Positions 2 to 32,640 of a stretch of 35,000 bases of DNA are shown here, piece by piece; position 1 is the first letter of the stretch, and each line of letters begins with the position of its first letter. A program made the position numbers and the translations under genes. This stretch comes from Chromera velia (lineage: Eukaryota > Sar > Chromeraceae): assembly GCA_018398765.1 (NCBI GenBank), contig JAHBMJ010001683.1, positions 32,317 through 67,316 on the forward strand, in the 5' to 3' direction. The notes below the pieces were generated by a model, which worked only from the letters and a program-made list of their open reading frames with translations, was not told the DNA's origin and ran no database searches.

Positions 2-3000
2 CCCGACCCTTCAGACTCCCTCAGTCAATCCATTGTGGGGTGTGACACTGGCGGTGCAACCAATGCCTTTGAGAACACATCCTACACTCTGTCAGTTCCG
101 CCCCTTGTAATAGGGGGTGGCACCATTGACTTTGGAATCGGTACCCTGGGCTTGCCCGACATTGGCGAAGTCACATTCAGAGACTATAATTTCACAGCTG
201 AGGATGCGTTGAATGCAGTAGCTGACGGTGCATCGAATTCCACAGATGACTCTGACTCAGACAGTGAAACTGAGCAGAATAGCACCTTCAGTCTCCGCCG
301 AGAAGCAGAGGCTCTCTTCCGGGCTGCCCTTGGAGAGGCCGCCAACTTTTACGAATCGCTCCCCATCGACATTGACGCTTTTGAAGCTGTCAATTGCACC
401 AACGAATTGCTTTTTCAGACTATCGGGTTGGAAGAGGGAAGCGGATACGACCGTCTGTTTCCCTCTGGAGTAGAGGCACCAGAGGACGGCACTTTACGCG
501 AGGAGGCACTCAAGGGAGGGTGCCTAGCTAGTCGCAGAGCAGAGGATCTCCGTGCCGTGTTTGCAAGCACGCTGCTCGAGATAGCATCCGAGGCCGTGTG
601 TACTGCAGCTGCAGTTCTGCCTGGGGGATTTGGCACGATCTGTTATCTTGCCTCGTTCCTCCCCCCCTGGGCCACATGGCTTGGCAAGCTGCATCTCGGG
701 CAGTGCAAAATTCTGAATAATGCGCTTTCCAGCGCGTTTGTTGAGTCGGCATTTGAGAACTCAAAGATTGCCCTGGAGGGTGTGCAGGGGGCAGAGACAA
801 CAGACGACGGCGCAGCGTGCAGTCTGACGGCATTGCAACAATCGGTCCGTCTGATCGTGACATGTATTGATTTTGTTTTGAAAGAATGATTGCGATCTAT
901 GTGTTGGTTTCATTTTGCTCCCCCACCAATTTGATTGATGAAATACTGGTCTGTCGATTCTTTTTCAGGAAGAAAACACTTGCCACGATTGAAATACAGA
1001 GAGTACAAAGACAATCAAGTAGGCATTGGCCCGGCATTGTGTCGAGAGGTAATTTCTCTCTCTGTGTGGAAATTTGCTTCTGGACTCCAGAGCGTTGTGC
1101 TTGCCCAAGAGTCCTAAATCGTTTGTACGTGCACTTCGAGAAAGGGACAGAAAAAGAAGCAAGAACACAGAAAACAGCCTCTCGTAAATTGCTCTCACAG
1201 TCCATGTGAAAGCCCTCATGGTGGCCCCTTCTCTCTGTTTTCCCCTCTGCATTCCCTGAAATTTTATCCTTGCAGATTCAGAGGCTCCACCAAGAGACCA
1301 GGCAAAACGTCAGTGAACAGACTCGTGTATCAATCAGCTCTTCTTTTCTGCTCTTCTGCATTGCCCGCCTTCCCGTACCTTCACCGACAGCCAACAGCCT
1401 TTTTGTTTCCTTCATCACAGCTGACTGCCTACTTGACGCCCGAAAGGCTCCTTCTAGTGTTCCTCAGGCATACCCACAGTGCCTGTCTGCAGGGCACTGC
1501 CAGAGAACAACACCATCTCCCTTCTGGCTGTGCCTTTCTCTTGTTAGACTTCGATCTACTTTCAGTTTGCTGCCGTGTCCTTTCTCGAATGCATGCATGG
1601 ACAAATTCGTGCAGACTGGAGGCTCCTCGCTTGATTCTCTCAAGGACGCCCTTCTCTCTTTCGAAAAGACAAAAAAGGAGGCACAGAAAGAGACGGCAGA
1701 CAACCTGGAGGGCCTCCTGGGCTCTCTCCGCACCGCCCAGCGCCTCTCTCTCTCTTCAGAGAGCGATCGTCCTTTCTTTGGGGATGCCGATTTTGACTGT
1801 GGAAGAGAAAACACACAGAGAGATGCTAGGTGCCCACCCCCCCCTCCCCGTCCAACCTCCGAAGCGCAGTGCGAACGCGGGGAACCTCTGTGTGTCCCTG
1901 TCGCTCCAGATTCGAACTCAACGAGGGCAGCTCAGAAGAGGCTTCAAAAGGCCAAAGAAGCCCTTGAGGCGTCTGAAGGGTGGCTGACGTACGTGCAGGA
2001 GAAATTAGGAGGGACTTTCTACGGAGAGGATCAATGGAAAGGGCAGGAAACGTTGAAGTCGCTCTTCGACTGGCAGAAGTCAAGTGAGTGGATAAAAAGT
2101 TTTCTCTCTCTGTCTCAGCAAGTTTCTCTTCTTCTTCATTCGGATTCGTCCCTGCCTTATATTTTTGCTGTTGTTGATGCTGTTGCGGACTCTTCAGTCT
2201 TTTTCTCCTTGTGCCTACCTCCTTGCCTTTGTTTTTCGCACTCTCTTCTCCAGGATGCTCGCCTGTTCACTGACTTTTACTCGAGACGCATATATTCGAT
2301 GTGTATGCAATGCCTTCCTTCTTTCGATCTGCAGCTGGAGAGGCTCTCCCTCGCAGACTGCTCGACCTAGATTTCGCGTCTCTGCAAGAGATGGACCTTG
2401 AAGATCTCAACAAATACTTCCCCTCTTCCAACACCCCCAATTTCAAATTTGCCTTCAAAGACGAAGGAAAAGCGCCTCCCTCTTCATTCGCAATCCCAGA
2501 AAGACCGCAGGTGCCAGAGGGCACCACCATCACCTCCGGCACAACCACCACCACCACCACCGACAGCACTACTACGATTAGCACGACTACAATCTCCACC
2601 ACCACCGAGAGTACTACCACGATGAGCACAACCACTCAGAGCAGTACGAACACAGACACAGACACAAACACAACCACCAACAGCAACAGCACGGCAGACC
2701 CTGTGGGGGTCTGTGCAGGACCCGTCACGAACTACGCAGAGTACCTCTTACGCCGAGGGTGCGACGCAGTGGAGTCCATTTCCATCACCTCAGATTCCGA
2801 CTGGCCCGATGACGTGCCCATTGCAGAGCTGTACTTTCCCGTACTGCTCTCTGTGATACCAGGGGGTGTGACAGTAACCGACACGACAAAGATCATCAAT
2901 GTGTACCTTCCCTGGTTGACAGACGTTGGTGCAGAGGTGGAGATTCGAAGAAATACAGTCCTAGAATCGATCTCCCTGGCTTCACTCAGGCGAGTCGGTG

Positions 3001-4037
3001 ACTTTCTTCGCATTGCCCGAAACCAAGAGTGCGAGTACGTAGACCTCAGTCTCTACTATGCTTACGAAACCGACATGCCTCCCCTGGAAATCGGGTGCAG
3101 CCGATCGACAGCCGTCATAGATATCGTTTTAGGCACACGGGCTCAGACGAACAATCTGAATGTGACCTTTTTCGAAGATTTGTCGGGGGCCGACGACGGC
3201 TTTCCGACAGACACAACGTGTCAGGACAACGATCTTGATTACGAAGACTGCGGCCCCGACAGACATGGGCCTGTCAAGTCCCGGTCCCAATATCTTTCCT
3301 CGGGCATACGCAAGTGCAGCGTTATCGGGACAATGAGATTCCAGGGATACCGATCACAAAATCCCCGAAGAGCAGTGACTACACCGGGCGAGAGCCCCTA
3401 CCAGATTCCGGTCAATACAGGTCAAGGTCAAATAAATTCGTTTGTTGAAATGTTCTTTCCCCGCCTGATTCACGCAGGGAGTGTTCGCTCCTTTGCGATG
3501 CCGTTCGTGAAGGTCCTCAAGCTGGAGTCCCTCCGCCGTGTGCAGCCGCATCCCCTCTACGCAGAATTGTTTGATTCTGGCCCGACGGCTACGGCTCAGA
3601 TAGGGGACCCACAGGTAGATGGGAATTCATTTGAGATTCCGGGGGCGTTGAATCGTCTCGGTGATTTGATCATCGACGCTTTCGACCTTTTCCAGGTTGA
3701 CCTCCGATCCGTTGAATACGTTGAGAACATTCTTGAAGTCCGGTCAAGCCAATTTGCCAGAAGCACCGCAATCAACCCCTACATTGTTGACAGCAGTGAA
3801 CCTCGCTCGTTCCTTCGACTCGACTCCCTCGTTGAGTTTTGCGAACTTGAGATTGACTGTGGGAGGTTGAGGAGGAGGGACCCCAACCAAAACAGGTTCG
3901 GGCGATATGTGACGAGCAATGAGGGGTTCGGAGATTCCATAATAGAACAGCTGGTTCCGTTGTACATCCCGGAGGCTGCCTACAATGCAGCTAAGGTGGT
4001 GCGAGGACCGGAGCGTTGTGAGACCATTTTCACATAG
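2..4037 (+). CDS. Paralogue A: secreted-family protein with Thr-rich stalk and L-domain-like C-terminus (5' partial)
   Basis: The frame is open from base 2, so the gene starts left of the window. The proposed exons are 2 to about 844 (donor after LTALQQS, uncertain), 1615-2083 (acceptor GTGCAG, donor GTGAGT) and 2335-4037 (acceptor TCTGCAG, stop TAG). The 2083/2335 junction is phase-matched (phase 1). Exon 1 carries the family block GSGYDRLFP and the KLHLGQC block. Exon 2 carries a helical segment followed by the CPPPPP...C...C cluster. Exon 3 begins with LLDLDFASLQ, similar to the end of paralogue B. It then runs through a Thr/Ser-rich stretch into about 440 residues of repeated hydrophobic strands such as SISLASLRRVG and KLESLRRVQ, which resemble receptor L-domains. 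Many N-x-S/T sites suggest an extracellular protein. There is no obvious C-terminal membrane segment. If the exon 1 donor is not used, the frame stops at 887-889 and the gene would be two genes. Family homology is seen directly; the function is unknown. Confidence 0.7.
2519..2697 (+). repeat. Thr/Ser-rich low-complexity coding stretch in paralogue A
   Basis: Imperfect ACC/ACN codon repeats encode about 55 residues dominated by Thr, with Ser, Asp and Asn, including runs such as TTTTTT and repeated STTT units. Stretches like this commonly act as O-glycosylated, extended stalks. Here it separates the family body from the L-domain-like C-terminal part. The glycosylation is inferred. Confidence 0.85.
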
Positions 4038-5580
4038 CGACTCGATCAGCATGGCCGGCCTACCTAGCTCTTTCTTGAAGGCCGAGCGTGCAATGGAAAA
4101 TGGTAGATGGATGGATGTGTGGGTGGAGGGATCTGATGAAAGCAGGGATCGATTGACTGTTGTTTCGACCCAGGCAATGGAATTGTGAAATGCCGATTGG
4201 CTGCGAAGAATTTGAAAGACTCGGAGAGAGAAACTTTATGACGTACCACACTCGAGTCAGGCAGTGTCCTGAATTCTATTGCTTAACTAAGCGCCCAGGC
4301 TTTCGGCTTAACCGCACAACTTGAAGGATCCCCATCCATGTCTTTGATTTCCAACACCTCCCATAGCATGATAAAAGATTGGTTCGCGTGCATGCATGCA
4401 TCTCGGATTCCTCCCCAACCCTTCGGCAAGTACGGCATCTGGGGTGAAACAACTTGAGTGGCGTTGAGCAACTTGTTCCAAAGGGTTTTCTATTAGCACT
4501 GCAGGGTGCCAGCTGATTTGACCAAATTTGCTGGCTTGAGCCAACCAAAACCAAGCAGGGTGCAATACAGATGTTTGTATGTATACGTACATCATCTGTG
4601 TACTAGTCTGTGTATCAATTGTCTAGTTAATTGTTAAAAATTTTTTGTATTGATAAAAATTTTAAACATTCAAGCTAGCATTCAAGTTACTAGAGGCTAT
4701 TTATTAATTGATGTCAACCCAATCGCCACAAACGGATTCTAGATCGGATTGTGAAGAATGAAGTTAATAATGATTATTATGATCAATCGATGTCTTTTAA
4801 CTTAAAATTTACTGAATATGTTTTGTAAAAAACAATTATTTAAAAAATATTCAACTTTAAATAACATGTGATAATTTAAACAACATCTATTGAATATAAC
4901 TTTAAATTTAAACTTTGCTATTTTTTGCTTCCGATTTCTTCTAAATTAATTAAGGTTTTATTATTAACTTTTATAGTTTAGAGATGTAGATAAACTTAGT
5001 ACTATAAAGTCATATGATACATGAAATAAATCATATATGCAAGTTTCAAGTTTTAAATATGAACTCAATGAAACTTTTTCTTTGTATTTACAACTTTAAA
5101 ATTTGTATTACGAATGGTATCATTTTTAAAGCATTATAAAATTTTAGAGTTGTGCATGTTAGAATTAGAACTTTATAAGTTAAACCAAGCTGTCTGTCAA
5201 AGTTTTAGTAAATAACCAATGCTATTAACCATTTATTTATCTTTCTGTTTCAACTTTTTTCTCCCTTTTCCCTTATGTCTTTGGAGTGCAATGAACAGTT
5301 CGATCGCGCTGAGAACATTAAATATGGTGTTTGTATTCCTTTTTGCATTGAACGAAGCCATCTACAGCAGGTGCTCTTACCTCCATTTCTAGCTGCTGCT
5401 CAATGAAGTTGAAGAAATAGAGTTGACAGGGAGTGAAACACCTCAATGGAGTACTCAATACGATTCACATGTTGCATGCTTGCACGCATGCGTTCATGCG
5501 TACAGTCTCATGGCATCTTTTCTGCCTCAAAAGTTGTGCCTTCCGGCCTCTGCTTCAAACTCAAAACCTGCAGAGCAATC
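4038..5580. other. Convergent intergenic region, AT-rich core
   Basis: This lies between the stop of A and the stop of B, so it should hold both 3' untranslated regions. Bases 4600-5400 are strikingly AT-rich compared with the flanking genes. They contain no reading frame I can support and no recognisable terminal repeats. A TGCATGCATGCA run lies at 4389-4400, and mixed GCATGC-like motifs lie at 5474-5500. Confidence 0.7.
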
Positions 5581-8500
5581 TCATACGAACTCCAAGATTC
5601 CCTCCTTCAGACTGTCCAAATTCAGATCCACGAACTTCCCCTTCCACTCTTCCGTATCCTTCCCCCCGTTGTTCCTCATCCTCACCTGAACATTCCCTCT
5701 CGGGTCATCGTCTTCTCCCTCCTTCGCCTCCACCCAGTCCCACCCTTCCCTTTCCTTTTTCGCACTCCCACTGGCACTCCCAGCATCACCCAACCCAAAA
5801 GAAGGCATCATCTTGCCCAGACTCTCTGAAAACCCCTTCAAATCCAAAGCAGCCCCAGGGCTCTTCACGTCCCCAGAATCTAAACCTTCTGTCGATGCCC
5901 CAGTCAAACTGCTCACCTTGAATGAGCTGGAAAACCCAATTTCATTCATCAATTTGCTTCCCTGATCGTCAGTAAATTTCGTAGGCAGTGTGTCATGCAG
6001 AATGTCTTTGAACGTGTCGGAAGAGAGAGCGCCCTCTACCGAAAGGGGTTTTTGTCTGGGCATTTGCAATTTGGGCATCAGGTCCTCTAGCTTCATCTTG
6101 GGGAGTTTCGTTTGTGGGAAAACTTTTTGGGGGTTTTGTATGATTCCCTTCTTGGTTTTGGAAGACGAGGTAGCGGTGCAAAAATCCTCAACAACGCAGG
6201 CCTCTTGGGATGAGTTGATGGGAGGGGGAGGGGGGCAACTGGAAACAGAGACAGACTGCTCACAGCCAGCAGAGCCGAAACCTGGCCTCTGGTCCAACTC
6301 CGTTACTGTGAGTCTTCTCAAAATTCGTGAGGCCTCACCAAGGTCAGTCAATTTGGCGTCGATCTTCTTCTCTCCCTCCTCTGCGCTCTTGATCATCATT
6401 CCGACAACGGACTCCAATTCCGTCAGCTTCTTGGCTCTCTGGAACGCGTCGGGCTCAGATACGCTTCCTGAGAGCTGCATACCAAATTGAAAGTGTCAAG
6501 GTACATGGATATCCTCCCTCACTTGTCTGCTTGGAACTTCAGAAACAAATACAGGCAAAACCAAGAGTTCTTGCTGTGAGTGCTGCTGGTTATGTCCGCG
6601 AGTGAAAAGCAAAGAGAGTGAAGTTAAATCCTGGCTCACGCAGGCTGCTGCCTTTCTTGCCGTCGTCTTTTTCTTTCCAAAGCTGGCCAGGAAGAAATCA
6701 CTCTGACGTCTATTGATGGTAGACAGTGAAGAGCCGTGGGAAGAGGGACAGATAGGGGCCCACCCTCGCTCTCGTTGTCTTGTGCTCGATAATGATCTGC
6801 AGGGTGCATTTAGACGGCGGAAGGGAGGAAAACAACGGAGTGCACCTGAATTTTGAGAGGAAGCTGATTCAGAAGACAGGAAGGGCCACAGTAGCATGGA
6901 CGTGTCTTTGACGACAAGAGGAAGGTGAGAAATGACAAATTTCCGAGAGACGGGATAGAGCCCCCTTTCCCCATTTGAGCGCTTCTGACCTGTTGCTCAA
7001 GTTGGTCCAAGGCCCTGAGGGCGGTGTCAGAATTTTCAAAGGTCGCCTCGATTTCTGCGCGTCCACCAAACCCCTCTGCAACTCGCACTGCGCAATGTGG
7101 AGCTCCGCTGCCCACTCGGCCATCATCGGAATCGGCAACACGACCAGACAGGCGGGGTTAAATCCTGCACACATGCGCATAGACGCAGAACACTGTTTTT
7201 TTTTCTTTGACTCACCAGCCCTGATATTTTCGTCATCAAAGAGTTAGGAGGGTCATTATGAAATCGTGCAGACGGCCGTCGTAGGTTCTCGCCCTCTACA
7301 TCAGGGCTCAGCCTCAAGCAGCAAGTCTCAAAACACATGACCAGACGAGCACATATGCGTAGACTCACAACACATACGAGTAATACCACCGATAAGGGAA
7401 GAGTGATCACGAAAGTAAACATGCAATCGGTCGGACAGACCGACCAATCAAAGGTGTTCTGGGAGCGCTTGCGCAAATGAAGTTGGAGATCGTCTGAAGA
7501 GACTGCTGGGTCTGGAAGGCTCTAAAGTCGTCTCCCTCTTTGCTGACGTCACACCTGCATGCATCCAGGGGAGCGATCCGTGAATGACTGATTGCAGAAG
7601 AGAAGATCAGAATTGTTGCTCAGCAAGAATCCGTTCATACGAATCAGTGCAAGCATCACTCTCGCAACATGCACCTCCGCCAAAAGAACGTGTCCAGAGT
7701 CTCTTCCGTTGGAAGGAAGGAAGGCAAAGAAGCATAGCAAAAGAAAAAGTGAACCAGTGTTGTATGCATAGCTAGGTGCTTCGATCGTCCCCCGCGAAGG
7801 AAGGCAGCGGACAGGCAATCTCCATTTCTCCCTTTTCCCGTCCGTCTTTCAGTCTTCTTCTTGCACACATCCCTTGCACATGAAAGCAAGAGTACACGAT
7901 CTTGAAACCCAGACATCCTGCTTCTGTATGACAGACACGACTGACCGATTCATCAGTAGCCCATTAATTTCGTCTTCGTTGTCATCTGTGAGCTCGATGC
8001 TCTCTCTGGTATCCTGCCGGGGAATGAGACGCGAGAACCCATTTCCTTGGTTGATTCCAACAGTCTCAAAGATAAATTGCTCAGCCGTCAGACGCCACTT
8101 GTCGAGGTCAATGTCCACCGAGAGCTTGTTGCTCAAGAATTCCTCAAATTTACTCTTTGATGACCCTGTCTCTGTGTCTGTATCTGTTCCCGTCTCTGTC
8201 TCCTCCCCTCCCGCCTCCCCCCCACAGTTGAGAAAGCTAAACGGCCCCTCCCCTTCGGTATCTGATGTCAGGCTTATGTTCCCAAGCTCTGGAGCGGGGA
8301 TGTCCCAATCATCGTCCGTGAAGGTGTCGATCGACAGGCTGAAGACAGTCTTGAAGTCCGCGAATGGGTTGCCGAGAGCGCTGTTGCAATTGCATTCAAA
8401 AACACACATAAATTTACTCAACATTTGCGTATACTTCCTTCATATATATTCATTTGCATATGTTTTCTCTTCATAGGCTGCATGTATTAACTATTCGGAG

Positions 8501-9165
8501 TACCATAGAGGGACGACAACACACACAACCATTTTTTGTAACTCTTAACACTGATCCGGGCCCACTTACCTCTTGAGGCTCGCCATTGTGTCGTAGAAGA
8601 AATTTCCTGCCCGATCTAAAACGCCGCCTTGTCTGAGAGACGAAATGTTGAAGGCCGAGCTAATGCAGGACTCGAATTGGCTCTGTGCGGTCTCATTCTC
8701 ATTGTCTCCCCCCAGGCTGACGCCCTCAGGAATAAAGTCTGCAACTCCGAAATTTGTGGGAAGAACCTGATTGGCCTCTGCAGTGGAGTCACTTGACAAG
8801 GATTGGAAGAGCTTCACTTTCGAAGCTGTGGGATAAGAAGGGACTGCTGACTGGAATCCATTCAAGTCCCCTACCGAGCCCAGCTCTCCTTCCTCGTCGG
8901 TCTCATTCTTTTTCTGGCGCTTGAGCGCATCGCAGCTCTGCCCAACAGCGAGAGAGAATTTTTTGTCTGTTTTGAGAAAATCGTGAAGAGACTGAAAGTC
9001 TTGTATCGATGCTCCTTGGATCTTCTCTGCATCTATCTCCAGGCTCTTCGCTTGGTTCTTGAAACACTCGTAGAGGTCATCGATCGAAAGAGGCTCTGGG
9101 ATGATGGCAGTGCGTAGTTCAATCCAGCAGAGCCCCAAAAGGGTGCACAGAGCCGCTGTTCGCAT
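5581..9165 (-). CDS. Paralogue B: secreted-family protein, five exons, with a one-base frameshift in exon 4
   Basis: Exons in transcript order are 9165-8570, 8380-7946, 7702-7641, 7164-6990 and 6474-5581 (stop TGA). All have GT-AG ends, and the phases at successive junctions (2, 2, 1, 0) agree except for the defect in exon 4. The start at 9165 puts the signal peptide MRTAALCTLLGLCW at the N-terminus. An in-frame ATG at 9237 would bury it behind 24 charged residues. Family blocks are GNGFSRLIP in exon 2, NPACLVV and AELHIAQC in exon 4, and CPPPPP...C...C in exon 5. Exon 2 also has an acidic/Thr run of about 20 residues. In exon 4 the frame that gives AELHIAQC shifts at about 7059-7060 to the frame that gives AEIEATFENSD. 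Both halves match A and C. The gene is therefore either a recent pseudogene or affected by a base-calling error. Exon 3 is short and its donor (ATTC|GTATGA) was chosen by phase. The product would be about 720 residues; its function is unknown. Confidence 0.72.
7059..7060 (-). other. Apparent 1-nt deletion (frameshift) in paralogue B exon 4
   Basis: On the minus strand the codons read GAC, then two bases GC, then GCA GAA ATC. Paralogue C at 15200-15211 reads GAC TCT GCA GAA ATC. One base is missing from the middle codon. The gap is too short for an intron, and a TAA near 7160 closes the downstream frame if it is read from the exon's start. Confidence 0.75.
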
Positions 9166-9338
9166 GTCACGACGAATGACTTTTTCTCCCTTTGTTTTAG
9201 CTGTCCTCTGTGACAATGATTCGCCGCTGGAAGACAAAGACGAGCAGCAAAACTCAAGATCGATCCTTCTGTCATCCGTGAAGAATTTAATGGTGACTTA
9301 CTGAAATTGGTCGTCGGAGAAAGGAACGATGAAACGGC

Positions 9339-9346
9339 ATATATAC
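9339..9346 (-). promoter_or_regulatory. TATA-like element upstream of paralogue B
   Basis: The minus strand reads GTATATATG about 175 bp before the chosen ATG. Between them the minus strand has a donor-like TTTCA|GTAAGT near 9302 and an acceptor-like TCTTCCAG near 9231, so a short 5'-UTR intron is possible. This is inferred from motif and position only. Confidence 0.35.
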
Positions 9347-9789
9347 AAGTCATTGACCTGCACGACAGATTCCTGCAGGCAGAACAGGTTGCCTTCGTGC
9401 ACATCATTGCATGCATATTTTCGCATACATTTTTTTAGACCCGGCCGGGCCTGAGGCTCGATCATGCATGCAATTGCATGCAGGTTTCGACAGACTTAAT
9501 TTACACAGAGTGCATATATATATATAGTTCTCGATCGAGTTTTCATCTCAGTTTTGCGAATTGTTTAATTTCCAGTCGAAAAAATTGATTGAATTGAATT
9601 GATTTTGGGGATTTTATTCACAATTCACGACTTTGCCCGGGGGCTTGCATATGGCTTGCATGTATCCTGGCTATGCAGGATACCACTTCCACAGGCTCCA
9701 GTGGCATGCCGGGGCCTAGCAAAAAATCGTCTAGACCAAGTATTAATCCTCAGGGCCGTCTTGCAAAAAGACTGTCTGGAGTCTGGACG

Positions 9790-9940
9790 ATGAAAGTGGA
9801 AAGACTATCATGCAAACAGACAGAAAGATAGAAGTGGAGAGTTCGTTATTCAAGCACGAAAGATGAAACTTCATCATGAAAGTGAAGAGAAGTTCAATGT
9901 TTGCATGTTTATCTTCATAAATGGGAGTTCTGGTGTGTTC
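9790..9940 (+). repeat. Detached degenerate copy of the 38-bp array with its 3' flank
   Basis: The motif CAAACAGACAGAAAGAT appears here, followed by AGTTCAATGTTTGCATG and TTTATCTTCATA. The same order closes the main array at 11490-11585. The segment is therefore a second copy of the array's right edge, separated from it by about 600 bp of AT-rich and degenerate sequence. Confidence 0.7.
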
Positions 9941-10539
9941 TTATACTATTCCACAACCATTCATAACTATTCAAACCATTTTAAGTTCTATCATTTTTTT
10001 TTTTGAAAGTTTTTTATCTATCTTTGTCAAAAGTATTCAAAATTTGGTAAATTACCCACAGTGGTACATAAATTATAACTAAAATTACGTAAGTTTACAC
10101 ATTTTTTTTTTCTTTTGTTTCTATCTCTAATTTTATATGTCCAGCTGCAAATGAGGCTTTGAATAAACGTAAGTCTTTTCGGTTTTCCTACTAAATCTGT
10201 CCCCAACAAGAATTTTATAGAAACGTAAACTCACAATGTATTGCTATGGTGAATATGTTAAAAATTCTGCTAGAAATTCCTTGTGAGGAAGTCTTTGTTG
10301 TTTTTTATTCAAATGTTGTAAACTCCATCCTCCATCCTCCTCCAAATGATTCTGCTTTAAATTTCACACTTTAGGAAGGAAAACATTCTCTGTGGTCCAG
10401 GAAAAGCTAACATCCAAGCATATGAAAACAGAAAAGAAAACCAGAGAAATGAAACTGGAACAGACGTCAGCTTTTGTACGGAATTATCAATCAGACGAGA
10501 TTTAGAGCATATTGTTTGTTCCAATGAGGGGTCATACAC

Positions 10540-11565
10540 GCAGACAGACAAGAAAGATGAAGACTGAAAGGTCGTTATGTGAGGAGATAAGGAAGATGAA
10601 AGTGAAGCGGACTTTCTGCAAGCAGATGGGCTAGCAGATAGGATGAAACTGGAGAGGCCCTTAACACGCAGGCAGGAAAGATGGAAGCTAGCGGAAAGTA
10701 GTCATGCAAGCCGGCAAGATAGACAAAAGTGGAGAGTCGTCATGTTCGACAGCGCACGACAGAAGAAAGTAGAGACCCACCAAGCAAGCCAAAAAGAAAG
10801 ATGGGAATATGAAAGTGGAGAGGCCGTCGTGCAAGAAGAAAGAAAGAAAGATGGAAGTGGAGAGGCTGTCATACAAACAGACAGAGAAACGGAAGTGGAG
10901 AGGCCGTTATGCAAACAGACAGAAAGATGAAAGTGGAGAGGCTGTCGTGCAAGAAGACAGAACGATTAAAGTAGAGAGGCCGTCATGCAAACAGACAGAA
11001 AGATGAAAGTGGAGAGGCCGTCGTGCAAACAGACAGAAAGATGGAAGTGGAGAGGCCGTCATGCAAACAGACAGAAAGATGGAAGTGGAGAGGCCGTCAT
11101 GCAAACAGACAGAAAGATGGAAGTGGAGAGGCTGTCATGGAAACAGATAGAAAGATGGAGGTGGAGAGGCCGTCATGCAAACAGACAGAAAGATGGAAGT
11201 GGAGAGGCGCCATGCAAACAGACAGAAAGATGAAAGTGGAGAGGCCGTCATGCAAACAGACAGAAAGACGAAAGTAGAGAGGCCGTCATGCAAACCAACA
11301 GAAAGATGGAAGCGGAGAGGCTGTTATGGAAACAGACAGAAAGATGGAGGTGAAGAGGCCGTCGTGTAAACAGACAGAAAGACGAAAGTGGAGAGGCCGT
11401 CATGCAGACAGACAGAAAGATGGAAGTGGAGAGGCCGTCATGCAAACAGACAGAAAGACAAAAGTGGAGAGGCCGTCGTGCAAACAGACAGAAAGATGGA
11501 AGTGGAGAGGCCGTCATTCAAGCAGGAAAGGTGAAAGTGGAGAGAAGTTCAACGTCTGCGTGTTT
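10540..11565 (+). repeat. 38-bp tandem repeat array
   Basis: The unit is 38 bp, with core words CAAACAGACAGAAAGATG, GAAGTGGAGAGG and CCGTCATG. The spacing was measured directly (for example the CGTC at 10981 and at 11019). Units are very uniform from about 10860 to 11520 and increasingly degenerate to the left. Because 38 is not a multiple of 3, each frame cycles through all three readings, so the small open frames on both strands are by-products. About 18-20 recognisable units follow 10800. Confidence 0.93.
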
Positions 11566-12296
11566 ATCTTCATATAGGACTTCTGGCCTGAAGATTTGAT
11601 CCTCTCACCACGTGTCCAGACAGAAGCTTGATTGAACTGTGTATGCAGAGTTCGTAGCAAGGTCAGTCAAAAAGCTGCTGCTTAGCTGTATGCACAGACG
11701 CAGGATTGACTGCAAATTTGGACCTACTGGTGGGCCTGTTACCTCCATCCTACAGATGTACAGGAGAATATGCAGCTATGTCTGTCCCATACCAGTTCTT
11801 TTTTGCCATCGAAGATCCTATAGCTTAATTGAATGCATTGGCGTGCCGAGATCGATCTTGTGCCATGCACTGGCGTCCCGCACAAAGAGTTAATCCCGCA
11901 CAGGTTGCTTGAGGGGCACGTTTCTTGAAGTTTTCGCGGATACAGTTATGCGCATCACTCGAACTTTCCGCGACCGTTGGCACGAACTGTCCGCGATCGT
12001 TCGCACAGAGCTGTTGCATTGCACGTTGCGTGACGGATGGGTGTCGCGATCAGGCTTCACTCGCGCGCGTTACCCTTTGAGCCAGGTCGCGGGGGTGTAC
12101 AGAGCTAGACAAGAACCGAGGCCCTGGGCCCCGGCACTACATGCCCGACCGGGTCCATGCATGTATATTCTTCACAGAGCAAGTCGCAGTGCGCATGTTG
12201 TATCGGTTTTATTCACTTTCATCGACTTTTTTTCAGAAATTACATTCTGTATACACGCATGCATGCATGTTCACATGTATTATTCATAACATATCA

Positions 12297-12320
12297 TATA
12301 TATATATATATATATATATA
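12297..12320. repeat. TA dinucleotide microsatellite
   Basis: An uninterrupted TA run of about 24 bases sits some 250 bp upstream of the C start codon. Confidence 0.95.
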
Positions 12321-12470
12321 TGCCAGCTCATCGCTTTTATCACGTATAGGTCATATGCCAGCTCCACGTAGAATTCAGTCGATCTCTTCTTCCTTCAAGT
12401 GCAACTTTGCACTGTACTTGGTACAAAAAAGAGCGGAGACGTGCGTCGAAAGGAGAAAAGCAACTCGTGA

Positions 12471-12477
12471 TATATAA
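12471..12477 (+). promoter_or_regulatory. TATA-like element of paralogue C
   Basis: TATATAA lies 96 bp upstream of the signal-peptide ATG at 12567. Its position and orientation suit a core promoter. No transcription start can be seen from the sequence. Confidence 0.45.
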
Positions 12478-12566
12478 GCCTGGCGAAGTTGTGCGGCAGC
12501 CTGTTCGTGTCTTTTTCGACTGCATGCCAGCCACGTTGCCGAAACCCGACCCGCACTACACCGAGA

Positions 12567-15500
12567 ATGTTCCCCGGGAGGACACTGCTGTTAGCGGTGT
12601 GTTTAGTGAGCCTCGGTGCTCTGGGAGAAGGCCCCGTATCTGGCACAGAGGGGCAGGGGGCATCTCTGACTCCCTCAGCCCTGCAGAGGTGCTACAGGAC
12701 CCAGGCAGAAGCCCTCGGCATTGAGTTCAAGCTGACAGAAGAAGACTTTGTCGCCTTCACAGACAGAGTCAACTCCCTTGGCCCTGCTGCCGTTCTCATT
12801 GCCAGAGCGTGTGAGCACATGGATGCCTCACGATTGCGACGCTTGATGGGAAAGGCCGCTGTCGGTGCTCAGTCTCACGGACCAGCGAAACGGAAACTTC
12901 AGCAGAGAGAGTTTGCTGGTGCAGTGCCTGAATATCCGACTGTAGCAGAGGTCAGTGCAAAGCCTGCAGCAGAGACTGTTTTGGAAAGAGATGCAGAAAT
13001 GCAGAGTGACCAGTGCACGACAAGAGAAAGGAGACGGCATGAAGACTATATGGTCACTTTGCGGCGACACGTGCATGCGGACAGCGAGCCAAGCGGACGA
13101 CTCGAAACAAGACCTGCCAGACAGCTAGTCAGACTCACCGTATCAGATGCGAAACTGGGGCACAATCGTACACGTTGAAGACATCACAGTTGGAGTGCCA
13201 GACAAATACCTGTTTAGCAGCAAATGCAGGCAGAAGAGCATAGAGACCAGCAGCTGTCAGAAAGACAGACACACGACAGACAGCAAGACAGGCAAAAAAG
13301 AAGTAAATAAATAAGATCACAGGCAGGTAAGCAGACATGGGATCCAGGTGTCGGCCTGATGTGCACACTTACACCCAAAGCTTGAGCAACCGATGATTGT
13401 GTCTCGAATTTCTGACTGCGTCTATCCCCGTACGCAGGTTGCATCCTTCTACAACATCTCCTCAGCCACCGACGCGCAGGAGACCCGTGATTTTATTCCC
13501 AAAACTTTTGGCCTGTCCGATTTCGGTCTCGAAGGATTTGACGTCACGAAGCCTTCCATTCCCCAGGTGGTGCAGTCAATTTTTTCGAACGAGTCCAGAA
13601 ATGATTTACCCTCCGAGGCCAATTTTGAGGGCCTCGAACAATACTCAGGAGCCGATCTTTCGGGGCTTCTGAATGATACCGAAGGATCCAGCGGCCCAAC
13701 AGACGATATCATCAACTTTCAAATCGTTGTGGAATATCCCGAAATTAATATTCCACGAACGCGATTCATTGCTGCATTTGAGCCCGTTGAGCAGAGAGAC
13801 CCGGAACAATTCACAATCAGCGTACTTCTTCCCGAGCTGTCCTATCAGCTTCCCGACTATGTTATCACCAGTCGCGACTTATTTGGGAATTCGATCTCTG
13901 CAGCAGATTCCAAGTCAACGGGAGACATTCGATTGACAGACCTCTTCCAAACGTTGGCAGAGAAGGTGGAGGAGGCAAGCGCTGCTGCAGGTGGAGAGGT
14001 ACGAAACGCAACCAACGAGACTTTGTCCAACGCAAGTCCGAGTCTTCGAAGAGTTGTGGATGTTTTGAAGAACACCACGGTGGAACTCTCGATCGCCTCC
14101 GGAGAGTCCCTCGAGTGCGCTGCTGACTTCTCTTTGACCTCGTCAGGTTGCAGCAAGGTGGGCTTGCGTGTGTGTGTGTGTGTGTGGACTTACTGGTTCA
14201 GGGCACAGAAGGACAAGAGCACGCCTTTGATGAGGAGGTAATCTAGTCTGCAGGGCAGCAGGCCACTTCTGCAGAACGAAACTTCGCCCTAGCGTTTTGT
14301 GATGCTCTGTCAAAAAGACGGAAGGAAGGACAGAAGCAGGGTCGACTGAAGGCGTGTGCATTCCCATCGGCATTCCCATCTAAAACATAGGTGCGCACGT
14401 AGAGAGGGAAGGGGTGAGGGAGGGAAACACATACGCACATGCCATGCTTGTTCAGTAATGCGTTACCCTGACATGTGCTGTGACAGCCAAAACCTTCAAT
14501 TCTCCGTTTCCGTTACACAGCCACTTACCTGGTTTTTTTCTCTCCTTCTGTCACAGGTTCTGGATTCGACCGTCTGTTTCCAAAAGACTCAGCAGCCCCT
14601 GACGACTGTGGAGAGGAGTGCCTCAATGGGGCTCTAATGGAACGGTGGGATGGGAGGGGAGGGGGGAAGGGGGATACATGGACGGTGGGAGGTGTGATGC
14701 ATCCTTTAATCTGATGAGACGCGAACACTTGAGCGTGTCCATCGCGCAAAACACAAACTCTGACAACTCCTCCATGCGCCCAGACATGAGAGAGAGAGAG
14801 AGATGCGCTTTTCCGTCTCGTGGTGTCCTCCTTACTGCGTGCCTGTCGGATTCTTCATCTCTCTTTGTTTTGTTTCGGTACCCTGTTTCGGTCTGTATCC
14901 CTGGGCCTCTCTCAGCATTGTGTGCAAACGCCATCAATCAACCCCAACCCAACAAGCCGTTTGCTTGCTTGCTTGCTTGCTTGCAGGTGCGACACCCAAT
15001 TTGAGACAGACGACATGTACTCCCTGGTGGCTGCCAAGTTGCTCGTGCAGGCTGCCGAGGTCATCTGCAGAGTCGCCCCTACTCTTGGGTCTGTGGACGT
15101 GAACCCTATCTGCCTGGTGGTCAAACCGCTCCCTTTATTGACCTACAGGTTCGCGGAGCTGCACACTCGGCAGTGCTCCATGCAGGACACAGCGGTGGAC
15201 TCTGCAGAAATCAGGGCAGCCCTTGAGAACTCGGAGAGAATTCTTGAGGGGGTTCATCAGCTAGTGGAGACGGTAGGTCGGTTAGTTACATTGTCTTCTT
15301 TCTTTTTCTTCTTTCTTTTGGTGTTCTCCTAAGCTGTTGGAGATACGGAGATGATTGGGCCTTTTCTGTTTTTTTTTTTTTTTAAATTTCTGCCTCATGA
15401 GACAGACATGTAGACTCTCAGGAATTTCCGATTGGTCCATCAAAACCAATTTTCGTGCATCTCAAGATTGATCTGCATCTTCTTATTCAACAAGATCCGG

Positions 15501-16845
15501 CGCACATTCAGGAGACACTAAGCTGTATGGAAGTCAAGCACTCAGAACAGCAGCAGAAGCGCCTCAAGTTACAGTTGTCCTGGCTGCATGTCTGATTCGC
15601 GTCCCCTGTCGGTCGGTCCATTTTCTTTTCCAATCGCAGGCAAAGGAGCAGCACGCTGCCACACGTGCAGCTACTCCCATGGAGGTCAGCAGAAAGGCAG
15701 AGAGACAGGCAGAAGCTCATGGTGGCCGGTTTGTGGGGCACACTGGCGGCGTGGGAAGGGAAGGGCATGCAGGCAATGCAGGTTGAAGGAAGCAAGTGCA
15801 TGTGTCGGTTGCTCTGCTTTGGCATCGACTTAATTTTAAAGACAAAGAAAGAATCAAGAGTCTCTTAGAAGACACATGGCTGCATGAAAGGTCTTGTTGA
15901 ATTTTCTCCACACCGAACAGATCAGGGGCACAGCAAGCGGGGAGATAGGCGACAGGCAAAACACCGGGAAAGGGATAGAAAGAGCCCTGTGGTTTGGTCA
16001 GTAGACATCTGATGAGCTGGCCGGTGAATCATTGATCCCACCAGTCTGGAATCATTGTCCTGTCTGAAGTCTTTGAATTGACTTCATCGAAGCCACTGTC
16101 CTGTCTGAAGTCTTTGAATTGACTTCATCGAAGCCACTGTCTTGAGAAAGACCGTCCTGAAGAGAGAGGGAGTCAAACGAAGCGTCATGCTTTGAAGACT
16201 CGATCTTTCAAGCACGCCTTCTTGTTCCTCCCCTTTCCTTTCATTTCTTCTGATCTGCAGGCGGAGGAGCAAGATCCCCTTCTTGCCATTGAGACGAATA
16301 TCACCAAGGGCGCCTCATCGAAGGGTCAAGGCGAATACGAAGAAGAGAAAGAGAGTCTGCTGAAGGGGTTGCAGCCTTCGGAAGAAACTGTAGAAGAGCT
16401 TGCAGACCCCAAAGTCGCTGAAGAGATTGACACAAAGAGGCTGCGAGAAATCCGGGAGGTCTACCGTTCCTTCGTTCGCAAGCGGAGAGAGAAGGGTGAG
16501 CAATGGAAGGAGGAATTGGGAGACATAGAGGAGTCTCTGCGCATCACACGACGTCTCCTCATAACCCCTCCGGAGGCGATACGCGACTCTCCCGACCTTG
16601 TCGCTTCCGGGTGCTCTGAAGGGGGATCCGATCCTTCCTCAAAGGACCCGAGTTTCTTTTCTGGGTTGGGGAAGATTGGGGAGATGATGGGAGGGGCCCT
16701 GAACATTGGAGACTTGGCAAAGCCTTTCATAGGGGGGGATGACTCTCCCAAACCTCCAACGAATCCAAAGGGATCCTGTCCACCTCCTGCTTTGAATCTT
16801 TGCGAGGCAAGCACAGAGCGGCTCTGCAGCAAGGTGTCCCAGTAA
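12567..16845 (+). CDS. Paralogue C: secreted-family protein, five exons
   Basis: Proposed exons are 12567-12950, 13438-14146, 14557-14644, 14987-15272 and 16261-16845 (stop TAA), giving 683 residues. The start at 12567 gives a clear signal peptide (MFPGRTLLLAVCLVSLGALG). Longer in-frame starts upstream lie before the TATA-like element's expected transcript and lack such a leader. Exon 1 and exon 2 align with B exon 1 (AVPEYPT...FIP). Exon 3 carries GSGFDRLFP, exon 4 NPICLVV and AELHTRQC, and exon 5 a charged helical segment then CPPP...C...LC. N-x-S/T sites are frequent. The exon 2 donor is the weak point. TCAG|GTTGCA gives the phase needed by exon 3, whereas the better-looking AAG|GTGGGC 11 bases later gives the wrong frame. 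All other junctions are phase-consistent. The enzyme or binding role is unknown. Confidence 0.75.
16059..16140 (+). repeat. Perfect 41-bp tandem duplication in intron 4 of paralogue C
   Basis: Two identical 41-bp units occupy 16059-16099 and 16100-16140. Each contains GAAGTC, an 8-base spacer and GACTTC, so each unit can fold as a short hairpin. Confidence 0.97.
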
Positions 16846-18646
16846 ACACTCGATTCGTCGATCTGCAATGAATCTGACCAACAAAGAAAAGGGGATCGAG
16901 GGCCTCGATTGTGGCTTGGTCGAGCATGCGCTTTCAGTCAAGACGCATGCACGCCAAAACGTAGACCCAGACATCCCCACACAATTGATAACTTTATGAT
17001 ATCTCATGTACACACATGATCGAATTCCACTATGAAAAAAGTGCGATACAGCCCCTCGGTATTGGCGTTCCCGTCTGCAACCTCCAGATGCATCCTTCTC
17101 TCAGTTAGAATCGACACTGTATTTGAAAGAATGTTGATGTGATTGAATAATTTGAATTCGATTCATAAAAAAAAGAACACCTATCAGTATTTGATTGAGT
17201 GGGCTTAACGTGGGCCTAAACGTGGCTTTATCATAAATACAATGAATTGTCATATATTTTTGCATACCTATATCTATTTAGTTATATATACTCTCCTAAT
17301 ATGTACTCTCTTTCTTTCTGTTTTTTATAATTTTATTTTTTTATGAAAAAACATTTTCAATTATAGTTTGATAAGTTCGTATGTTTGTCGAACAGTTTGT
17401 CAGTCTGACACTGAGCCATTCCAGAAACTAAGATAAAAAAATGAATTCCTGTAGAAATTGAAGGGAACAGACCCAATCACATCACAGAAAAAATATAAAA
17501 ACCTTAGAATTTTTTATCACTGGCAGTGCATGTTAGAGAGTGTGAAGTTATAACTTGGCCAGTCCAGAAAATATCCAAAGATTACTAAAAATCTTCAAGA
17601 AATGCAAGCCGTGAGATGCGCAGTAACTATAGGGGTCAGATCGATATCAGGCTTAATTTGCATGCTCCTGGCGCTCCGGTCTACTCCGGTCATTCATCTT
17701 ATATAGTGTATCAATATAACTTTAATATGACGATCCGTACAATTAAAAACATTATTTTTACAGAATACTTACCTTTAGGTGAGTGTCAAGTTCACTGCCA
17801 ACGGTCAATACTTTAAAATTTTTAGTATGCCGAACTTTTATATAAATTTCCAAGATTTAAGTCCCGCGGGTTTACCCGCGAACCGTAGTATGCTGGGACG
17901 TGCTATGAAGTTAGTATAAAAGGCCCGAAGCTCAATAAAAAGATTTATCTATGCCTCAAAGAACTTTAACTTACTTCAACTTAGTGATACTCTAGGATAC
18001 ATGCATGATGATCGAGTTTTTTTTTTAAATTGAGGTTTTTGTTATGGATGGCGCGTCCTAGCGCGTCCCCATATATGAAGGGCGGATCTAGGCGGATCAA
18101 GCCCAGTCTGTCTAAAGGTTCCGCTAGCTTTTTCCTGTTAGTCTCGATTCTAGGAGCAAGCTTTACTTTAGGATACTCCTGTATAAGAGATAATAAGAGA
18201 TGCGTGCACCACCTATCCATCTAACACGTATTTAATATATCGATATACAACGAGACCTGCGAGCTGCATGCCCTATACAAGGGCGCACAAACTTAATTCT
18301 CACTCTTACCTTCGCGCGCGCGAATGCGCGCGAACAAAATTGTCTACGATCCGGCATATCATGCACACATGCATGCATGCAGATTTCATTTAATTGAAGA
18401 CCGGTTATATAAATTTAATGCATGCAGTTAATCTATATGTATATATACGTCTCTTTCTTTAATTTGCAACTCTCGATGATCAGATCAGATCCATCTGAGT
18501 CTCTCTTTGTGCTCTCCTCTCAGACCAATCTGTCTGTACAGTCAAGGGCGGCATTGGGTTCCTCCAATTTTCAGAGACCTTTTTGTGGCCAGTGGTGGCC
18601 CAAGAATCTCAGTATTACGATATATATCAATCCCAGAAACAGCGCA
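16846..18646. other. AT-rich intergenic region before the hydrolase gene
   Basis: GC content drops after about 17000. The visible elements are the inverted repeat GCGGGT-TT-ACCCGC (17867-17880); TATAAAAG at 17917-17924 followed by AATAAA at about 17934; duplicated words (GCGCGTCC twice near 18050-18066, GGCGGATC twice near 18082-18098); and a CG-rich palindromic patch CGCGCGCGAATGCGCGCG at about 18314-18331. TGCATGCA runs lie at 18368-18381 and 18418-18426. No supportable coding region was found; short open frames here have no family features. Confidence 0.65.
17862..17960 (+). promoter_or_regulatory. Hairpin plus TATAAAAG/AATAAA cluster, possible promoter or solo-LTR remnant
   Basis: A 6-bp GC stem with a 2-base loop precedes a textbook TATAAAAG by about 40 bp, and an AATAAA follows within 20 bp. 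A TATA box close to a poly(A) signal is typical of an LTR R region. It could also be a distal promoter of the hydrolase gene or chance in AT-rich DNA. Confidence 0.25.
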
Positions 18647-20332
18647 ATGGTGGAGTCTACTCCGCTAGCTTTGCTCCGGAAGCCTCCCGTCTTTGACGAG
18701 TGCGTCCGTACCTCGGAAATTCATGTCACGGCTGATCAGTCTGATTTGCTGGACATGCGGTCAGTCATCGAAAAGAGCGCAGCTGTAGCACAAATGAGCG
18801 CAAAATCAGCACATGCAGAAGAGACCCGAAACGCCACAGGCAGTGCAGTCAATGCCACAACCCAGCAAGCGTCCGATCAAAAGTCCGAGTCCGCAATACC
18901 GACACGCAAAGTCGCTTACTGTGTGGTCGAAACGGGAAGACCCCTCGTGACAGAAGGGAATGAACAGGCAGTCACTGCACCTGAGACACGCTTGAGCGGT
19001 TGTCATGCTCTGCTGATGTCTGTGCCGCTCGGAGGGACAAAGGAGCTTGTCTGGAGCTTTCTGGACGCTTTAGAACAAGTTCCTGATCTGCCTCAGAACC
19101 TCAAAATCATCTGTGTGGACCGCCCCACTGCAGGTGACACCGACCCTGCCCCCCCCATACCCAGTCAGCAGTTACTGAAACAAAACTCCGACTTCATAGT
19201 CGAAACATGCCCCCAAACAGATAGTGAGGGTCTGCAAACAGGGCGCGGTGTGTCAACTGAGGTCTATAATCGTGCTACCTGGCGTTTGTATGTGTCGGTG
19301 CGAGATGCACTTGAAGTATTGCTCGCAGAGGGTGTGAGCAGCGTCCACGTTCTCGGCAAGTGCCTTGGACACCCCCAGGCAGCAGCCTTTTGTCATCTTT
19401 TCGAAAAGATCACGGAAGGCTCTGCACCCGAGCTGCGCCCCCAACTCCTCTTGCCCCTCACATTGATCACTCCGTGGGCTTCCTGTCAGAAGAAGCCGCC
19501 GTCGTTGTTCACTCTGCAGGGAATGAGCCACTTCGCTGGCTCACAGCTGGGCGAAACAGTTCGAGGGGGGGTGGTCGGAGCACTCGGCGCTCTAGGCGGC
19601 GGGCTCATCAGCAGCATCGCACACTCAATGCCGCAGCCGCTAGCCTACGAGAAGCTGATGAAGAAGGAGCTTGTGCCTGAAGAGTTTGGGCAGTTCGACG
19701 AGGCGAATTTTCGGGACTTCTCGAGGCATGATGATCACGGTCTCATCGTCCGTATCCTCGCCGGTTCAGCCAAGGCACAGAGTGTCGACTTAGCCTACGG
19801 TTGTGACCCTCAGTGGATGGATGCGTTCGTTGGCCCCCTGGTTCGCAGTCAAAAGGGAGGTCATCTGGGTGGAGACAGTAGGAGAACTTTGGAAAAAATC
19901 GAAACAACCATTGCCGACCTCTTTTGTAGTTGCCCTCCCGAATTTCAGTCGCCCTCAGTACCACAACGTTTCCAGGCGTACATGCACTCCGCTGCAACGG
20001 TCTACCGCACTCAAGCCGGCTCTTGGGTTCGAATTTGGGGAGCTGTGGAGGACAAAATGGTCCGCAAGGAGGTCATGAAATGGACCATGCGAGAGTATGG
20101 TCTCACAGGCACCAGCCTCCACTGCGATGGTCTTGGTGAGGGGGGTGGTGCATCATCACCGGAGTGCGATTTTCCGATGGTGAAAGAGGCCTCACGCAAC
20201 GGTTTGTTGATGGGTGGTGGACCAATGAGGGATGCATGGCTGTCTCGGGCGGTGCTCAGAGACCTTGCACAGTCGTTTTCTTGTTGGAAACGGGACAATC
20301 GAGATGGAATCGTGTTTCAGCCGTCAAAGTAG
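18647..20332 (+). CDS. Alpha/beta-hydrolase-fold protein with Cys in the nucleophile elbow
   Basis: A single exon encodes 561 residues from the ATG at 18647. The frame is open further upstream, but that stretch is low-complexity and contains TATATAT at about 18621, so it is more likely promoter or leader. After about 100 polar residues comes a strand-helix pattern typical of the fold: LLMSVPLGG-x-KELVWSF, KIICVDRP, then VHVLGKCLGHPQAAAFC, then LTLITPWA. The elbow is G-K-C239-L-G where serine hydrolases have G-x-S-x-G. A cap region follows (HDDHGLIVRILAGSAKAQ), then VRIWGAVEDKMV, which fits the strand carrying the acid residue. The catalytic His is not obvious. The fold is inferred from this layout. 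The protein may be a Cys-dependent hydrolase, as in dienelactone hydrolases, or an inactive relative; the substrate is unknown. It lacks a signal peptide, so it is probably intracellular. Confidence 0.68.
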   Translation: MVESTPLALLRKPPVFDECVRTSEIHVTADQSDLLDMRSVIEKSAAVAQMSAKSAHAEETRNATGSAVNATTQQASDQKSESAIPTRKVAYCVVETGRPLVTEGNEQAVTAPETRLSGCHALLMSVPLGGTKELVWSFLDALEQVPDLPQNLKIICVDRPTAGDTDPAPPIPSQQLLKQNSDFIVETCPQTDSEGLQTGRGVSTEVYNRATWRLYVSVRDALEVLLAEGVSSVHVLGKCLGHPQAAAFCHLFEKITEGSAPELRPQLLLPLTLITPWASCQKKPPSLFTLQGMSHFAGSQLGETVRGGVVGALGALGGGLISSIAHSMPQPLAYEKLMKKELVPEEFGQFDEANFRDFSRHDDHGLIVRILAGSAKAQSVDLAYGCDPQWMDAFVGPLVRSQKGGHLGGDSRRTLEKIETTIADLFCSCPPEFQSPSVPQRFQAYMHSAATVYRTQAGSWVRIWGAVEDKMVRKEVMKWTMREYGLTGTSLHCDGLGEGGGASSPECDFPMVKEASRNGLLMGGGPMRDAWLSRAVLRDLAQSFSCWKRDNRDGIVFQPSK

Positions 20333-25410: not shown

Positions 25411-26171
25411 CGCTGCCCAGACAAAAGCAACACTTGATTGGTGTTGTACTGATCGATCGGAAAGCTACTTACTGCGCTTGAAGGCTTGGTCAGATGAAGC
25501 ACGATTCAAATCAAAGACGCCTTCAGCAAGCAATACGGGTGAAGATGTCTTCAAAGCTATGGGAGCAGGGAAGAACTGCTACAATTCGAGAAGCTGAGAC
25601 CGAAATTAAGCCGACTTTCTGGTGTGCATGCATCCAAATTTTGACCGCCTCGATCGATTTCGACCGATAAAAAAAAGAGCCACCGTGCGTATGCGTGCGC
25701 CCGGACCGTGAAAGCGAAAAAAGCTTCTGCCGAGCCAGAAAATTGTCTCTTTCCGGGGCCGGGACGTGTCTGCCTCGAATGGCAGCTCCACCTCGTCAAC
25801 ATTCGGATTTCAGCATCCACCTATGAAAGGTCGGCAGCGGAGAAAATTAAAAAATGCCCGCGGAGCCATTTTGGAACTCAGACAATTTAGCTTTTTTCCG
25901 ATTTAAATTAAATGGGGTGTGTGACTCGGACGCAAGGTAAAGGCCCATATTGAAGCTCAACTGAAGCCTAAACCAAAAGCCAGCTCCGTCTACATCAGAC
26001 GTATCGAAAGAATCAGTTGTGTTCCGATTGAACGGTCTTGAACCACTTCAATTCCTTCTGCTGCCTGCAAGAGCTCTCGAAGCAGTCCATCCTTTCGATC
26101 AACTCCATCTCTCTGTGCCAAACACCAGACACTGGCTGACTGGACAGGCTCCTGAGTATCCAATCGGCGAA
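25411..26171. promoter_or_regulatory. Shared divergent promoter region of the MAPK2-like and GT16 genes
   Basis: About 760 bp separate the two start codons, which face away from each other. The region holds TGTGCATGCATCC at 25622-25634 and a palindromic TCGATCGA at 25650-25657. There is no clear TATA box. The glycosyltransferase frame is open from an ATG at 26019, so the true spacer may be shorter. Confidence 0.4.
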
Positions 26172-31312: not shown

Positions 31313-32009
31313 CCTCCCCCTATCATAGAGGAGAGGGAGAAAGGTCAGACTTACTAAGCTGATTGTCGCATGTCTGCACTGTGCAACACTTGAACAACAG
31401 TTGTTTACCTGTACGTTGACTGTTATGATAAATAAAAAAAAATCCTTTAGGATTAGGCTTTATATTCCAAGTTTGTCCCGAGGTCCACTGCCGGGGGACG
31501 GTTTGCACCGTTAAACAAAAAAGTTTTTTAATTTAATCTTTTATTTTTTTTTCTATAGTTTTTTTTTAATGTAGTGTAAGGCCTAGGTGGCTACTAGGTC
31601 GAATCCCAGTTGCAGGACTGTTACACAGAATGTTGTATGACTAGTTGTAAGAAAACTATACGTTTTTCCGTCCATAAATAAAAAAAGAAAAAAAAGATCA
31701 GAAACTTTCTTTTTTTTTTTCTTTTTTCTTTATGTGGAGAATCTTATGGAGTGCAGAGCGTATAGCCATTGACGTTTGGCTGGACTTAGGATAATCCTAG
31801 GGTTCAACTTTCTAGTAAACTTTTAATATTAAAAACTATAAACCCTCTAGATCTAGTCCTAGATTTTTTTTTATCATAAGATGATTAAAGGGTTTGTGTT
31901 CATTGCAACAAATAATGCTAGAGGTACTGCTTCCCGCCTCAGGGGTTTTTTGAAATGTAGGCAAACTTAGATGCAAAATTGAACATTGAATTTGATATCG
32001 ATCCTCTAA
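31313..32009. other. AT-rich region with homopolymer runs
   Basis: The sequence has long T and A runs (31548-31568, 31675-31735) and no supportable gene. GGTCGAATCCC at 31597-31607 resembles a tRNA-type B box but is not part of a foldable tRNA that I can find. Confidence 0.6.
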
Positions 32010-32265: not shown

Positions 32266-32640
32266 TGCTAAAGATCACCACAACTAGCATTGTGTGTTCC
32301 TCTCGTTTTGACTCCTTGTACTCTTTTCATCCGACTTTTCATCTTGTTATCCAACCTTTTTCTGCCTTGAAGTTCCCTTCGTGCATTGCATACCAATATA
32401 TAGTAGTATTAAATCACTTCAATCCTGAAGAAGTACGCCACCTGCTGACGACATAGCCCCACAGTAGCAACAGCTTTTCAGCAGCAAGGCCTCCAACAGC
32501 AACACAATGCACCTACCGGCACCGCCTGTGCCGCCGGCGCAACTCATCCCAACTTAGCAAGCACTAGTTACCCAACTCAAGCAACTAAAGAGGGGACAGC
32601 CAGTAACTACTTTTGGACAGCTCCCTCCGGCTCCCTCCCC
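32266..32640 (+). other. Non-satellite insert between satellite blocks, with a Gln/Pro-rich frame
   Basis: The left part is AT-rich and featureless. From about 32430 a plus-strand frame reads Gln-, Ser- and Pro-rich protein, for example QQLFSSKASNSNT and LVTQLKQLKRGQP, then enters the satellite in frame. It is broken by TAG at 32465-32467 and 32555-32557. It could be a remnant of a Gag-like gene, or chance in CAGCAA-rich DNA. Confidence 0.35.

Follow-up and report, generated by a model that had tools for sequence, protein, structure and literature searches.

The extracellular proteins described for chromerids set the frame for the locus reported here. According to the available part of PMC4501334, mucin-like Thr/Ser-rich secreted proteins occur in chromerids and apicomplexans, numerous secreted proteins with sugar-binding domains are found in chromerids, and the OWP of Vitrella is built of arrays of a cysteine-rich domain. 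The same part of PMC4501334 describes a 'CAST multi-domain' family, amplified in chromerids, that is cysteine-rich and has a transmembrane segment and a cytoplasmic coiled coil. Here we describe a cluster of three genes (A, B and C) in Chromera velia that is best read as a small, lineage-restricted set of secreted wall or surface proteins.

The window, by which we mean the whole stretch of 35,000 nucleotides that was analysed, is eukaryotic in character, with genes in pieces separated by GT-AG introns, about 50% GC and AT-rich spacers. Gene models of A, B and C were rebuilt by hand from the six-frame translation (Table 1). They bear out the plus/minus/plus arrangement given in a preliminary description of this DNA, with A on the forward strand (2-4037), B on the reverse strand (9165-5581) and C on the forward strand (12567-16845). 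One correction to that description concerns A, which begins before the window: its first exons are missing from it, and any signal peptide with them. The part inside encodes 1004 residues and is open at its 5′ end. The product of C has 683 residues.

Table 1. Exons of genes A, B and C as modelled in the window.
Feature	Coordinates	Strand	Content and basis
Gene A exon	2..844	+	Conserved core; phase-0 donor; homology, codon score
Gene A exon	1615..2083	+	Charged helix and CPPPPP..C..C block; codon score
Gene A last exon	2335..4037	+	Tail, Thr/Ser-rich stalk, C-terminal module; ends in stop
Gene B exon 1	8570..9165	-	Hydrophobic N-terminus; ATG at 9165
Gene B exon 2	7946..8380	-	Acidic/Thr region and GNGFSRLIP
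Gene B exon 3	7445..7554	-	First two core cysteines
Gene B exon 4	6990..7164	-	NPACLVV, ELHIAQC, then ENS block in different frame
Gene B exon 5	5581..6474	-	Charged helix, CPPPPP..C..C, charged tail, stop
Gene C exon 1	12567..12950	+	Hydrophobic N-terminus; ATG at 12567; codon score barely favours frame
Gene C exon 2	13438..14146	+	Codon score
Gene C exon 3	14557..14644	+	GSGFDRLFP; homology favours, codon score does not
Gene C exon 4	14987..15272	+	Four core cysteines, AELHTRQC, ALENS
Gene C exon 5	16261..16845	+	Charged helix, C-terminal CPPP..C..C, stop

Codon scores support the exon models: of 14 exon pieces, 13 have the proposed frame as the best of the forward frames; exon 3 of C (88 bases) does not, and exon 1 of C is almost tied. 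In a comparison of all six frames the proposed one comes first for 11 of the 14 pieces; a reverse frame scores higher for B4b and C4, and C3 is outscored in both directions. The training set for these scores comprised 1132 codons from neighbouring genes, of which roughly half came from the frame at 18644-20329, which has no family match. All ten proposed introns run from GT to CAG, and seven of them end in TGCAG; since the boundaries were picked by looking for GT and AG, only the uniform CAG is informative. The least certain junction is the acceptor at 1615 in A, because pyrimidines make up 45% of its tract, a smaller share than in any of the other nine. With boundaries hand-chosen from sequence alone and with homology in view, all three genes have a phase-0 intron ahead of the charged-helix exon, a phase-2 intron ahead of the first core cysteine is common to B and C and not found in A, and the remaining five introns are private to single genes. 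The last intron of C holds a perfect 41-bp tandem duplication (16056-16141). Introns of Chromera are larger than those of Vitrella, according to the available part of PMC4501334.

Protein comparison makes it a near certainty, at the level of sequence, that A, B and C are true paralogues from one ancestor, as had been proposed. Smith-Waterman scores of 273 (A-B), 206 (A-C) and 321 (B-C) stand against maxima of 73, 69 and 65, respectively, in 300 shuffles per pair. BLASTP against a four-sequence subject set joins A to C (E 3e-18), the first piece of B to C (E 1e-24) and A to the first piece of B (E 1.6e-13). The paralogues are indeed strongly diverged, with identities of 31-41% in the core (42/134, or 31%; 45/125, or 36%; and 53/131, or 40%), where B and C form the closest pair. 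A DNA self-BLAST of the window (E 1e-3, low-complexity filter on, complete to about position 32000) found nothing that joins two of the three genes. This lack of DNA-level similarity fits an old duplication, which explains the distance among the genes equally well as the rapid divergence suggested earlier. No further copies of the family were seen in the window: two profiles built from A, B and C, run against all six frames, recovered only the genes' own exons, the next matches having E values of 0.94 and 2.3.

All blocks named in the preliminary description are found in A, B and C at the coordinates given above, in the order and on the strands it had reported. The shared core extends over about 130 residues and can be written as GSGFxRLFP ... 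C ... C ... C ... LHxxQC ... ENS. Its opening motif, G[SN]G[FY]xRL[FI]P, reads GSGYDRLFP in A, GNGFSRLIP in B and GSGFDRLFP in C, where the first glycine is formed by a phase-1 splice. The next block is NPxCLVV in B and C and takes the equivalent form GTICYLA in A, and the blocks LHxxQC, ENS and CPPP..C..C occur in all three genes. The core alignment has 124 gap-free columns, of which 25 are invariant, including four cysteine columns; at least three invariant cysteines appeared in 0 of 20,000 row shuffles, a test that flatters the result because the alignment itself was built to match. A hydrophobic stretch within the core occupies a homologous segment in each protein (KD 1.58 in A, 1.64 in B and 1.36 in C), and a membrane-associated hairpin may be conceivable here. 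After the core, A, B and C continue with a charged helix and then CPPP..C..C, beyond which they part company: C ends there, B goes on into a charged tail, and A is extended by a Thr-rich stalk and then by its C-terminal module. Ahead of the core, the leader of B and C is followed by a region with two alignable cysteines and then by an acidic Ser/Thr-rich linker.

The Thr/Ser-rich stalk of A has no comparable counterpart in B or C, and its C-terminal module of 441 residues (2712-4034) is likewise absent from both. The 125-residue stretch that opens this module shows a weak hydrophobic period of 23 residues (z 3.0, best of 17 lags), and about three units in it resemble LxxISLxSLxxVGxxLxIxxN, the consensus of the beta-solenoid repeats of Receptor L/ECM33 proteins. 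The module differs from these in having neither a Pfam match nor an above-chance PDB match, and Pfam-A presumably contains the Receptor L domain model. The two halves of the module align weakly over 47 residues (E 0.049), and its remainder does not rise above shuffles when compared with a profile built from those three units (of 2000 shuffles made, 1026 were scored, and 151 of these reach its score). A single-sequence structure model of the module (mean pLDDT 35.4) has repeating strands at residues 23-139, with ten-residue means of 42-55, and its best Foldseek match has an E value of 3.2. Placing the module among the Receptor L/ECM33 proteins thus found no support from profiles or structure.

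The preliminary description had placed the proteins in no named family, and this holds across Pfam, PDB sequences, NCBIfam and PHROGs (the last two searched with the core only), none of which gave an above-chance match. Pfam, queried with the first 506 residues of A, the C-terminus of A, two pieces of B, the whole of C and seven blocks, returned sub-threshold matches only (best 0.029, Mei5). Searches of PDB by sequence covered the whole of C (best 0.63) and the C-terminus of A (best 0.43 and 0.11) as single queries and an A/B/C core profile (best 0.21), and all stayed at chance level. The three core sequences gave two chance matches in NCBIfam (best 0.17) and no match in PHROGs. Scans of IMG/VR and GTDB used a handful of short peptide patterns, to which distant relatives would be invisible: in IMG/VR, 9 stretches fitted a pattern from the core of A, 38 fitted one from the core alignment and none fitted one from the C-terminus of A, and in GTDB genomes the core alignment picked out 54; not one of these stretches was confirmed. 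Phage records gave no match to the C-terminus of A, and Rfam gave none at gathering thresholds. In the part of the literature surveyed, which includes part of PMC4501334, we found no description of the family. The word 'undescribed' therefore has a limited sense here: it applies to the libraries searched and the literature surveyed, since eukaryotic proteomes were covered only via Pfam models and PDB.

With profiles made from three sequences only, the core could belong to a known fold, extracellular or enzymatic, from which it has diverged so far that sequence profiles no longer see the kinship, its novelty then being only distance. The structure models bear on this point. The core of A, modelled from exon pieces, comes out all-helical at low confidence (mean pLDDT 45.8), with residues 181-240 at pLDDT 62-74; the alignment behind the model used separate exon pieces, and exon 2 of C is visibly misplaced in it. 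Structure prediction, applied to the core and to the C-terminal module of A, yielded a tentatively helical core and two poor models (mean pLDDT 35.4 and 45.8), which allow no fair fold-level comparison. Foldseek matches to both, rows for MSP-1 included, are meaningless (best E 3.2 and 2.7). Set against the lack of an above-chance match in the four protein libraries, two of them searched with the core only, a hidden known fold seems to us rather unlikely, and we retain the reading of a lineage-restricted family.

Secretion had been claimed for the family as a whole. It is supported in B and C only, which by hydropathy begin with hydrophobic N-termini (KD 1.69 and 1.77, the top window of each protein) and on this ground are likely secreted; the N-terminus of A is outside the window. 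The frequent N-x-S/T sites also reported earlier amount to a modest excess in two of the proteins. The first 506 residues of A have 6 such sites against 2.6 expected (reached by 42 of 1000 shuffles) and C has 7 against 2.6 (9 of 1000), whereas the 5 sites of B against 4.2 expected are no enrichment (408 of 1000). The 441 C-terminal residues of A, taken without a shuffle control, contain one site. Judged by eye, none of the three proteins ends in a hydrophobic anchor signal.

A hydrophobic leader would also suit proteins that enter the secretory route and end in an organelle and not at the surface, either in the plastid through a bipartite leader or in a microneme-like vesicle. Chromerid plastid proteins, too, bear an N-terminal signal peptide. 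Structures reminiscent of micronemes are mentioned for both chromerids in the available part of PMC4501334. The cysteine pattern, the mucin-like stalk of A and the sequons of A and C would nevertheless fit an oxidising extracellular setting better, and we judge an organelle end-point improbable and keep the wall or surface as the proposed destination.

The exon models contain a single disruption, a frame change in exon 4 of B that had gone unmentioned in the preliminary description. It falls between the LHxxQC and ENS blocks, so that FNPACLVV..ELHIAQC is read in one frame and AEIEATFENS in another, although each is conserved; the pieces of B were accordingly handled separately or joined with X. 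A change of frame in the core implies that B is either a pseudogene, recently inactivated, or the product of an assembly error, and at least one member of the family may be non-functional. An additional small intron was considered as an explanation, but at about 28-34 bases it would be too short (judged by eye). That the whole cluster is decaying, with B and perhaps others pseudogenes and the family without function here any more, is very unlikely: the two displaced blocks of B would agree with it, but no other disruption is present, the remaining exons are open, 13 of 14 pieces have their best forward codon score in frame, and a single base-level difference also looks like an assembly error.

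The surroundings of the cluster hold recognisable genes and repeats. A MAP2-type MAP kinase gene of several exons lies at about 22886-25400 on the reverse strand; its C-terminal piece matches the PDB entries 3rp9, 3nie and 3n9x, Toxoplasma and Plasmodium MAPK/MAP2 structures, at 2.8e-91 to 2.5e-63, the next entry following at 4.5e-34. A multi-exon gene for an MGAT2-family N-acetylglucosaminyltransferase lies at about 25965-29072 on the forward strand. Its largest piece matches MGAT2 (PF05060) at 1.8e-10, above the cut-off, and two smaller pieces match below it; the MGAT2 family is not known from apicomplexans. In combination, the apicomplexan-type kinase and the glycosyltransferase point to a chromerid such as Chromera velia. 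An open frame at 18419-20332 (forward strand, 637 residues) has no Pfam match and contains VHVLGKCLGHPQA, which by eye resembles the nucleophile elbow of alpha/beta hydrolases in an altered form.

The heptamer TGCATGC, which resembles an apicomplexan AP2-type promoter element, matches 35 times in the window (both strands counted) against 4.45 expected, many of the matches being single TGCATGCA sites counted once on each strand. Positions 2-16845 hold 21 of the 35, none inside the exons of A, B or C. Groups lie upstream of the start codons of B and C and near the open frame at 18419 (for example at 9408-9482, 12257-12267, 12521-12527 and 18370-18426). Two minisatellites are also present: one of 38 bp in 19 copies at 10809-11544, with diverged copies at 9787-9933 as well, and one of 87 bp in 26 copies at 32638-35000, with open frames of up to 273 residues on both strands.

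Protists commonly have lineage-restricted clusters of genes for secreted proteins, and the A/B/C cluster is of this already familiar kind. We put at roughly 0.45 the probability that an anciently duplicated three-gene cluster here encodes a secreted multi-block family that serves the cell wall or surface, structurally or adhesively. The observations behind this reading are the paralogy, the block order, the conserved cysteines, the stalk of A and the hydrophobic leaders of B and C. From these, and presuming splicing as modelled, we infer a surface role in which the parts would act as follows. A leader and a cysteine-containing N-terminal region (both in B and C) and an acidic Ser/Thr-rich linker would lead into a putatively helical core with four cysteines, followed by a charged helix and then by a block rich in proline and bearing cysteines, to which A would add a mucin-like stalk and its C-terminal module. 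The core, if held by disulphides, would together with the Pro/Cys block provide anchoring or assembly in the cell wall or surface layer. The tails would give each paralogue a binding or spacing function of its own, and the Thr-rich stalk of A would present an adhesive head.

A bolder version, which we think has a slim chance of being right, would make this a chromerid-specific or alveolate-wide extracellular family in which a new type of disulphide-stapled helical core carries C-terminal heads swapped by exon gain, as a modular wall or adhesion scaffold; if true, it would be an example of the free-living stock behind apicomplexan surface proteins. Because chromerids inform the origin of parasite surface proteins, the family would matter if its core occurs in apicomplexans or builds the chromerid wall. 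What it offers at this stage is a clean family of proteins whose gene models can be put to use and whose cysteine signature is defined.

Compared with the systems described in the available part of PMC4501334, A, B and C resemble OWP and CAST in being cysteine-containing, lineage-amplified and, as proposed here, secreted or extracellular, and differ from them in that neither an array nor a clear transmembrane segment is present. As regards oocyst wall protein (OWP/COWP) arrays, no cysteine array was seen by eye and no match was obtained in a Pfam copy that may or may not include an OWP model. Cvel_967 of Chromera, compared by its description in the same part of PMC4501334 only, has no tandem array counterpart in A, B or C and is like them, on the reading proposed here, in representing an undescribed extracellular cysteine domain. 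The mucin-like proteins of chromerids and apicomplexans differ in that B and C have no comparable stalk and that their description, as far as that part of PMC4501334 gives it, has no cysteine core; their likeness is to A, which carries a long Thr/Ser-rich stretch between its other parts.
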